Assembly: GCA_012960225.1 (NCBI GenBank)
Contig: DUBS01000044.1
Coordinates: 1 to 64,000, forward strand
DNA: 64,000 bases
Reading direction: 5' to 3'
Origin: Gemmatimonadota bacterium
Lineage (GTDB): Bacteria > Gemmatimonadota > Gemmatimonadetes > Longimicrobiales > Gaopeijiaceae
Part shown: positions 5,514-39,722 of the stretch, in pieces
How the letters are laid out: the number at the start of each line of letters is the position of its first letter
How positions within the stretch are numbered: position 1 is the stretch's first letter
Position numbers and translations under genes: made by a program
Notes under the pieces: generated by a model
What the model saw: the letters and a program-made list of their open reading frames with translations, nothing else
Database searches by the model: none
What the model was told of the DNA's origin: nothing

Positions 5514-5676
5514 AACAAGGCGTTTCCCTGAAAACCTGGGATAAGCGAAAAGCACTAATAAACGAACGAGAACGATAACCGCTCTCCGAGTACCTCTCAA
5601 CGGAAGCCCTAGCGGAAATCTTCACAAGGGGATCATGTTTCCACTATTTCCGTGGATTATCCCTAACCTTAGTTCG

Positions 5677-37169: not shown

Positions 37170-37976
37170 ATGGATCCCAACTTAGGTCGACCAAAGCGCT
37201 CGCTGAGCCAAAACTTCCTGGTCGATGTCAATATCCAGAAGAAGATTGTGGCGGCCTTGAGCGCTGATGCTACCGAGGTGGTGGTGGAGGTGGGACCAGG
37301 ACGTGGTGCACTTACCCAGCATCTTGTGGGTGCGGTCTCTAAGCTTGTCCTGATAGAACTTGATCATGATCTAGCGGCGATGTGGTCTGAAAAATACAGA
37401 GACCGTGATGATGTGACTGTCCTCCAGGGAGATGTGCTAACGATTCCTTTCTGGGAATCAGTTGAAGATCCTTCTCAAGTTCATGTCATAGGAAATATTC
37501 CCTACAATATCACCTCTCCCATCATCTTTCGCCTCCTGGAGCGTCCACGTCCTAAGAGCATTTTATTGACTATCCAGAAGGAGGTAGCGCAGCGAATCAC
37601 AGCTCCTGTGGGGTCAAAGGAATATGGGGCCTTGTCTGTAGGAGTTCGAAGCATAGCGAGTGCGGAAATACTTTTCGGAATCGGTAGGCATGCGTTCAAA
37701 CCTAAGCCAGGGGTCGATTCTTCCGTGATTCGAATTGTTCCGGTTCGCCCTGAGCCTCTTTCACTCGAAGAAGAGTTGAGCCTGCGCAGGCTCGTGCGAT
37801 CAGTTTTCCAATGGCGAAGAAAGCAACTCAAGAAAACCTTGAGGGATCATGAAGCACTCAACATCTCGCCAGAGCTAATTGAAGAGGCAGCTGAACGCGC
37901 CGAGATAGACCTCACAGACCGCCCAGAACGCCTGTCTCCCGAGGCATTCCTACGACTTTCCGGGACATTGCCGTAA
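37170..37976 (+). CDS. rsmA: 16S rRNA dimethyladenosine transferase RsmA/KsgA
   Basis: RsmA dimethylates A1518 and A1519 in helix 45 of 16S rRNA, a late checkpoint of 30S assembly. The 268 residues show KRSLSQNFLVDVNIQKKIV, the SAM site VVEVGPGRGALTQHLV, VLQGDVL and the catalytic NIPYNITSPIIF. The C-terminal domain has VFQWRRKQLKKTLRDH. It stands between the STAS gene and the Rex operator. Confidence 0.96.
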   Translation: MDPNLGRPKRSLSQNFLVDVNIQKKIVAALSADATEVVVEVGPGRGALTQHLVGAVSKLVLIELDHDLAAMWSEKYRDRDDVTVLQGDVLTIPFWESVEDPSQVHVIGNIPYNITSPIIFRLLERPRPKSILLTIQKEVAQRITAPVGSKEYGALSVGVRSIASAEILFGIGRHAFKPKPGVDSSVIRIVPVRPEPLSLEEELSLRRLVRSVFQWRRKQLKKTLRDHEALNISPELIEEAAERAEIDLTDRPERLSPEAFLRLSGTLP

Positions 37977-37997
37977 TCCATACCTGCCCGTACTTTC

Positions 37998-38015
37998 TTG
38001 TGAATCTTTTCACAA
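37998..38015. promoter_or_regulatory. Rex operator palindrome
   Basis: TTGTGAATCTTTTCACAA is a perfect inverted repeat of TTGTGAA around a 4-base centre, extended by one more C-G pair (37997/38016). It matches the known Rex-binding consensus TTGTGAA-N4-TTCACAA. It ends 37 bases before the rex start, so Rex probably represses its own gene when NAD+ is high relative to NADH. Confidence 0.9.
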
Positions 38016-38052: not shown

Positions 38053-38685
38053 TTGTCTAAACGCATATCCGATTCAACTGTTCGCCGACTCTCGCACTAT
38101 TTGCGAGTGCTAGAGCTGATTCAGGATGATGGTGGAGTGACGGTTTCAAGTGAGCAACTTGCAAGGCGCGGGCACACCACCGCAGCTCAGGTCAGAAAAG
38201 ATCTTTCTCACTTCGGTTCCTTTGGTAAGCGCGGACTCGGCTACAGTGTAGATGAGTTAAGGGATCGTCTAAGGATAATCCTCGGCCTAGACCGAGTGTG
38301 GCGAGTAATTCTAGTCGGTGCAGGACGTATTGGTTCTGCATTGTTTGAGTATCCCGATTTCAAGAAGCGAGGATATGATTGCGTAGCTGTTGTCGACAGC
38401 GATCCTGCAAAAATTGGCGAAAAATGGGGTGAACGAGTGATCCGGCCAGCTGAAGAACTAGAGTCACTCATCAAGGAATTACACGCCGCTTTAGTGATCC
38501 TCGCTGTCCCGGCTTCAGCTGCTCAATTGGTCGCAGAGCGCTCCGTAAATGCTGGAGTCAGAGGGATTCTCAATTTTGCTCCCGTGCAGATCCAAGTCCC
38601 GGAAGATATCCCGGTTGAAAACGTGAATCTTGTGATGGAGCTCGAAGCTCTTTCGTTCCAGATAACCCGAGCCTTGACGCCTTGA
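38053..38685 (+). CDS. rex: Redox-sensing transcriptional repressor Rex
   Basis: Rex dimers bind DNA when NAD+ dominates and release it when NADH rises, derepressing fermentation and respiration genes. The 210 residues carry an N-terminal winged helix (TVRRLSHYLRVLELI, AAQVRKDLSHFGSFGKRGLGY) and a Rossmann domain with VILVGAGRIGSALFEY near residue 85. VVDSDPAKIG, ILAVPASAAQ and a swapped C-terminal helix (VNLVMELEALSFQI) follow. The start is TTG at 38053. The perfect operator just upstream supports both identity and autoregulation. Confidence 0.96.
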   Translation: MSKRISDSTVRRLSHYLRVLELIQDDGGVTVSSEQLARRGHTTAAQVRKDLSHFGSFGKRGLGYSVDELRDRLRIILGLDRVWRVILVGAGRIGSALFEYPDFKKRGYDCVAVVDSDPAKIGEKWGERVIRPAEELESLIKELHAALVILAVPASAAQLVAERSVNAGVRGILNFAPVQIQVPEDIPVENVNLVMELEALSFQITRALTP

Positions 38686-38723: not shown

Positions 38724-38756
38724 GCCAGTCAGGATCGGTGATTGTGGCCAGTCAGG
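38724..38756. repeat. Direct repeat of GCCAGTCAGG
   Basis: Two identical 10-base copies (38724-38733 and 38747-38756) lie 23 bases apart start to start, in the gap between rex and the MBL-fold gene. The spacing is close to two helical turns, so a regulator site is conceivable. No matching known operator is recognised. Confidence 0.4.
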
Positions 38757-38840
38757 CTGATACCTTTTAATCTGGAGCTAAGGCAATTATTGACCGCCGT
38801 GGCCACCTTATGCCTACGAGCAGAGAGATCTGGGGATATC

Positions 38841-39722
38841 ATGACAGAGTGGATTTCAAATTTACCTCTCAGTAGGGAAATCTCAGTAGGTTCTATTAGA
38901 ATCCACGCTATTGAGTCCGGTATCCAGTGGCTTGATGGAGGCGCCATGTTTGGTGTAGTGCCTAAGCCTCTCTGGCAACGCCGAATTCCTTCTAATGACC
39001 AGAATCGCATTCCCCTCGCGCTGCGGTGTCTAGTCATAGAATCACCCGACGAACTTGTGCTGGTGGATACTGGGATCGGCAATAAGGAGAGCAAGAAATT
39101 TCACGAGCTCTATGGCGTAGAGAATTCCGGGAATCCAACTCGTTTGGAGGATGGCATAAAAGCCGCAGGGTTCATGCCAGACGATATAGGAATTGTATTG
39201 TGTACACATCTACACTTCGATCACGCGGGCGGTAACACATTCCAAGATTCCGAGGGTAGCATTCGACCAGCTTTCCAAAACGCTCGTTATGTTGTACAGC
39301 GTGGTGAGTTTGATTTCGCTCACAGTGGGAACGAACGAATACGGGCAAGTTATCTGCGACAGAACTTTGACCCCATAGAAGAAGCCGGCCTTTGGGATTT
39401 TGTTGAGGGTGCAACCGAAGTTATCCCAGGTGTAAGAGTGCTACCGACACCCGGACATACTCCATTCCATCAGTCAGTTGTGATCGAGAGCGATGGAGAA
39501 ACCGCGTGTTTTCTTGCGGATGTATGTCCGACGGCAGCACACATCCCGCTTCCGTGGATCATGGGTTATGACCTTGAGCCGCTTGTTACACTTGAGTCAA
39601 AGCGGAAGCTTTGGGCTTTAGCACGTGACCAAGAATGGCTGCTTATCTTCGAACATGATCTACTTATACCATGGGGTCGTCTCGATATTGATTCGAAACG
39701 ACCTCGACTAAAGAACAGCTAG
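38841..39722 (+). CDS. Metallo-beta-lactamase-fold hydrolase
   Basis: From the ATG at 38841 the protein has 293 residues. The zinc motif reads CTHLHFDHAGGN, with further ligands in PTPGHTPFHQSV and the aspartate of CFLADVCPT. The layout (a leading EGP-type region GGAMFGVVPKPLWQRRI, then LVDTGIG) resembles quorum-quenching lactonase-like and related MBL hydrolases. The substrate cannot be deduced. An upstream in-frame ATG at 38742 would add 33 residues without a recognisable motif. It precedes glyA by 41 bases. Confidence 0.88.
   Translation: MTEWISNLPLSREISVGSIRIHAIESGIQWLDGGAMFGVVPKPLWQRRIPSNDQNRIPLALRCLVIESPDELVLVDTGIGNKESKKFHELYGVENSGNPTRLEDGIKAAGFMPDDIGIVLCTHLHFDHAGGNTFQDSEGSIRPAFQNARYVVQRGEFDFAHSGNERIRASYLRQNFDPIEEAGLWDFVEGATEVIPGVRVLPTPGHTPFHQSVVIESDGETACFLADVCPTAAHIPLPWIMGYDLEPLVTLESKRKLWALARDQEWLLIFEHDLLIPWGRLDIDSKRPRLKNS

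Follow-up and report, generated by a model that had tools for sequence, protein, structure and literature searches.

The window, a 64,000-nt stretch of DNA from a genome of 2.62 Mb in 57 contigs, harbors the rsmA (ksgA) gene, a short spacer and the rex gene in the same orientation (Table 1). The spacer contains the 18-base palindrome TTGTGAATCTTTTCACAA, which is separated by 37 nt from the TTG start codon of rex. The earlier note had described it as an ideal Rex palindrome 37 bases before rex, and sequence, coordinates and gap are all exact. The downstream open reading frame is a true rex gene, whose product comprises the N-terminal winged-helix domain PF06971 and the C-terminal Rossmann domain PF02629 of Pfam and scores over the cut-off of the NCBIfam Rex models. 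Its best solved relative is the Rex protein of Thermotoga maritima (5zz5, E 1e-51), and the genome itself has its nearest named relatives among Gemmatimonadota metagenome genomes, e.g., UBA7889, UBA1120, UBA1142 and RS373, with Rex proteins that are 87-97% identical. The rsmA gene is located upstream of rex in 48 of 52 loci. A metallo-beta-lactamase-fold gene follows downstream of rex (38742-39722); it resembles YtnP-type lactonases, scores far below the NCBIfam cut-off, and has a relative near rex in 32 of the 52 loci.

Table 1. Features of the rex locus and the second operator site (positions refer to the window unless a contig is named)
Feature	Position	Strand	Remarks
rsmA (ksgA)	37170..37976	+	upstream neighbor; 21 nt between its stop codon and the operator
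predicted -35 element, TTGCCG	37968..37973	+	overlaps the last codons of rsmA
predicted -10 element, TACTTT	37991..37996	+	17-nt spacer; ends 1 nt before the operator
putative Rex operator, TTGTGAATCTTTTCACAA	37998..38015	.	perfect match to TTGTGAANNNNTTCACAA; kept before rex in 51/53 loci
rex	38053..38685	+	210 aa, TTG start; winged-helix and Rossmann domain
one-mismatch Rex site, TAGTGAACAATTTCACAA	C15:76173-76190		14 nt before the nuoA start

The perfect operator occurs once in the whole genome, against 0.008 matches expected by chance. A single site with one mismatch was detected (0.35 expected), and eight sites with two mismatches are opposed to an expectation of 7.0. Since the 89 matches with up to three mismatches are close to the 83 obtained with a reversed control, only the top two sites exceed the background. 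Within the window, two matches with up to three mismatches were found (2.8 expected by chance), and the only one besides the operator itself is a three-mismatch match at position 5610, in agreement with the earlier note, in which no second copy had been noticed in the window. The two-mismatch sites of the genome (L004, L017-L023) were dismissed as chance matches, as their number is close to that expected and every one of them lies inside a reading frame of the ORF list. A third WNGTGAANNNNTTCACNW site (G000 C23:21372) is located about 125 nt inside a membrane pyrophosphatase-like ORF, a family named by eye, and was likewise taken as chance; hppA is among the Rex targets listed for Streptomyces avermitilis in passages from PMC5355995. 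The sequence TTGTGGTCCAGCTCACAA at C29:52386, which retains the outer arms only and lies within an ORF, was rejected.

The use of the operator as a query for the remaining regulon, as proposed in the earlier note, led to the one-mismatch site upstream of nuoA as a second target. The nuoA gene is followed by nuoB, and both are assigned to subunits of the NADH-quinone oxidoreductase by NCBIfam, with NuoA scoring below the equivalog cut-offs and NuoB above that of the subfamily; the gene on the other side of the site encodes a dCTP deaminase. The same combination, a perfect site at rex and one with a single mismatch at nuoA, is found in all four remaining genomes of the genus; the assignment of nuoA in G103 and G113 is based on near-identical flanking sequence. 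The match to TTGTGAANNNNTTCACAA is found in the promoter of rex and of a respiratory gene, as is typical of ROP sites, and the regulon beyond rex in the genome of the window looks like a single operon, that of complex I.

Our comparison of 53 rex loci (the window and 52 others) with a threshold of at least 11 of the 14 fixed bases showed that the operator precedes rex in 51 Gemmatimonadota loci, 26 of them with a perfect site, and this conservation extends down to about 50% Rex identity. One of the two misses has just 35 nt of upstream DNA available (L093), and the operator is truly absent in the other, where rex is present (L068, genome G041). Further genomes with a close Rex harbor the operator before rex in 11 of 12 cases, and in five of five cases in another set; G072 contains rex with no operator within 450 nt. 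None of the six copies of a distant Rex-like protein is preceded by the operator. The lack of the palindrome in orthologous rex promoters had been named in the earlier note as evidence against its proposal; the palindrome is kept there in nearly all loci of these sets, and its recurrence before rex in Gemmatimonadota supports the proposed autoregulation. A conserved spacer without function, retained by chance or inheritance, would account for the similarity of the rsmA-rex spacer within the genus, but more distant loci have diverged except for promoter and operator, and 0.008 perfect sites are expected by chance in the genome. These results contradict such an explanation, and we regard it as extremely unlikely.

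The operator adjoins a sigma70-type promoter-like pair (TTGCCG-17-TACTTT, 37968-37996), and the distance from the -10 element to the operator is almost constant across the loci. A rule that requires TTG, a spacer of 16-18 nt and TAnnnT, with the end of the pair at most 10 nt upstream of the operator or at most 2 nt within it, retrieved such a pair in 46 of 47 distinct rex loci, compared with a mean of 0.3 and a maximum of 3 in shuffled upstream sequence; this rule was drawn up after the inspection of eight aligned loci. A stricter version without overlap of the -10 element and the operator recovered 25 of the 47 rex loci and 21 of 27 nuoA loci. The conservation of the -35 element within the genus could partly reflect coding constraint, since TTGCCG overlaps the final codons of rsmA. 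Transcription is predicted to start about 7 nt after the -10 element and thus inside the operator, so that bound Rex would block the polymerase directly. The inverted repeat might alternatively act as RNA, either as the terminator of rsmA or as a hairpin in the rex leader, as its palindromic structure and its distance of 21 nt from the rsmA stop codon would allow. Yet the palindrome is not followed by a T-run, its 7-nt arms are both nearly fixed in contrast to the variable four central bases, the spacing to the -10 element hardly changes, and nuoA, in a different gene setting, is preceded by the same sequence. A role as RNA is accordingly very unlikely.

The distribution of the nuoA site bears on the identity of the binding protein. 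Across the family, a site with at least 11 of 14 bases precedes nuoA in 50 of the 52 genomes that possess a close rex, compared with one of 14 that possess nuoA but no rex (Fisher p 7e-11 when genomes are counted singly and 9e-5 when every genus or lineage has one vote). The 52 rex genomes stem from 58 that were drawn and 11 that were chosen from the genera g2 and g15; the pool comprised 131 genomes that gave a Rex match, and the absence of rex was verified with both a protein query and the PF06971 model. The two exceptions with rex but without the nuoA site belong to genus g31 (G116, G138) and have kept the operator before rex. The sole rex-less genome with a nuoA site is 73% complete (G120), and its rex gene may be missing from the assembly rather than from the genome. 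The 2x2 table covers neither three genomes with a nuoA site and an uncertain rex status (G146, G147, G148) nor G084, which was dropped because of a partial nuoA match, nor the rex-less G053 with no nuoA match, nor three genomes with only a distant Rex of 31-35% identity and variant sites of 9-10/14 (G078, G082, G137).

The operator is thus not only kept in orthologous promoters but also lost together with rex, and this co-loss ties it to Rex rather than to another regulator. The CRP half-site is TGTGA/TCACA, which is also contained in TTGTGA-N6-TCACAA, and a CRP/FNR-type protein could therefore be the main ligand of the palindrome in place of Rex. A CRP site would, however, not be expected to disappear along with rex, and the palindrome is located before rex in nearly all loci, while the nuoA site is missing in 13 of the 14 rex-less genomes. 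We consider it very unlikely that such a regulator, and not mainly Rex, binds the palindrome.

Two observations concern the nuoA upstream regions of genomes without a close Rex. In those of the three genomes with a distant Rex, the position of the site is taken by an altered palindrome, AAGTGACCGATTTCAC(A/G)C (G082, L195; G137, L201; G078, L204), which may represent a changed operator for a changed Rex. Most of the rex-less g5 genomes (L152, L154-L160, L162) exhibit the decayed-looking palindrome TGCGAAACCCCTCCACAT 12 nt before nuoA. Its score of 8/14 is equalled by 37-62% of shuffles and not above chance, and its interpretation as an operator relic is suggestive only.

Based on sequence comparison, the palindrome is very probably the operator through which Rex represses its own gene, with the same Rex controlling the complex I operon via the nuoA site and being released by NADH. 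By analogy with characterized Rex proteins, from which binding, repression and the direction of the NADH effect are adopted, Rex dimers in the NAD+-bound or apo form would occupy the palindrome at rex, cover the predicted start of the TTGCCG-17-TACTTT promoter and block RNA polymerase. A rise of NADH would cause the NADH-bound Rex to leave the DNA and allow the transcription of rex, and the same protein would act on the complex I operon through the near-identical site before nuoA. Given that Rex would also control nuo, an excess of NADH would raise the enzyme that re-oxidizes it. The same feedback logic applies to the Rex-Ndh regulatory loop of Bacillus subtilis, where an NADH sensor reportedly controls an NADH dehydrogenase, with the difference that complex I takes the place of Ndh here. 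The control of rex and nuo by Rex is textbook knowledge.

Passages from the literature on Streptomyces document the closest functional parallel. Footprinting in S. avermitilis, whose Rex binds DNA less strongly in the presence of NADH, located the same consensus upstream of rex-hem and nuoA1-N1 (PMC5355995), and a review lists nuoA-N among the Rex targets (PMC8063818). The Rex/ROP systems of S. coelicolor and S. avermitilis share with the present one the 18-bp consensus TTGTGAANNNNTTCACAA, autoregulation and nuoA-N under Rex, according to the same passages (PMC5355995, PMC8063818). They differ in that cyd, atp, hem, wblE and others are also targets, whereas clear sites were found here at rex and nuo only, and in that the Streptomyces rex operator, as described there, lies over the -35 element and between -35 and -10, but directly after the -10 element here. 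Mechanism, operator and main target are thus already known, and our analysis adds the phylum, a small regulon, the co-loss with rex and an unusual Asn residue. A literature search over open-licence papers retrieved no paper on Rex in Gemmatimonadota, to which the loop of Rex and NADH dehydrogenase would now be extended, and the lineages without rex that also lost the nuoA operator represent a natural experiment.

The structural comparison with T. maritima Rex, the closest solved relative (PDB 5zz5, 7wb3), is in agreement with the recognition of this operator. Eleven of the 12 DNA-contact residues named for this protein in passages from PMC8836258 are identical in the Rex of the window, among them the recognition-helix residues Arg48 and Lys49. 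The sole differing contact residue is Lys43, with a change to Thr that Thermus Rex and all 52 orthologues share. All residues that served as a test for the Rex family (Arg12, Ser33, Gln46, Arg48, Lys49, Gly58, Gly61 and Tyr64 in T. maritima numbering) are identical, and the same is true for Ala96, Tyr100, Asp115 and Lys120 of the NAD(H) pocket.

A second difference from T. maritima Rex affects the redox switch, in which Asp is replaced by Asn. According to passages from PMC6125430, Asp188 plays a key role in the redox sensing of T. aquaticus Rex, and the switch triad is shared by T. aquaticus, T. thermophilus, B. subtilis and S. agalactiae. From the triad Arg16-Tyr98-Asp188 of T. aquaticus, Arg and Tyr are kept here (Arg18, Tyr100) and Asp is changed to Asn192. 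The 51 readable Gemmatimonadota orthologues contain Asn (34), Asp (15) or Ser (2) at this position. The triad is not strictly defining for the family, since T. maritima Rex lacks its Arg. By inference, Asn192 could still form the bond to Tyr in the NADH form but not the salt bridge to Arg in the NAD+ form, and the response to NADH may be weaker or shifted with Asn192 in place of Asp188. Because of this exchange, we only infer the NADH responsiveness that the earlier note had predicted. It is a tentative and on balance doubtful idea that a large Gemmatimonadota clade carries an Asn-for-Asp Rex with a shifted NADH/NAD+ set point, in which the Arg and Tyr partners and the operators were kept and the regulon was reduced to little beyond rex and complex I. 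The unusual sensor residue could help to identify the contacts that determine the redox threshold of Rex.

Rex sites linked to nitrate reductase, hydrogenase and cytochrome oxidase genes occur in some relatives only, and we treat them as leads for putative extra targets. G077, a member of the same genus, contains a copy identical to its nuoA site (L117:1501-1518) upstream of two genes, the first for a cytochrome c and the second for a molybdopterin oxidoreductase (Pfam) that resembles the nitrate reductase NarG, a name given by eye; this second gene is absent from the remaining four genomes of the genus, including that of the window. G094 has a perfect site (L171:1501-1518) upstream of the gene for the small subunit of a [NiFe] hydrogenase, at a distance of about 435 nt from its first in-frame start. 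Six of 15 genomes (L230, L231, L234, L236-L238; genera g8 and g13), but not that of the window, carry a site that coincides with the beginning of a DUF192 gene and overlaps codons. In the loci read, this DUF192 gene and a cytochrome c gene are divergent, and the same holds in G041 for a cytochrome oxidase subunit II gene.
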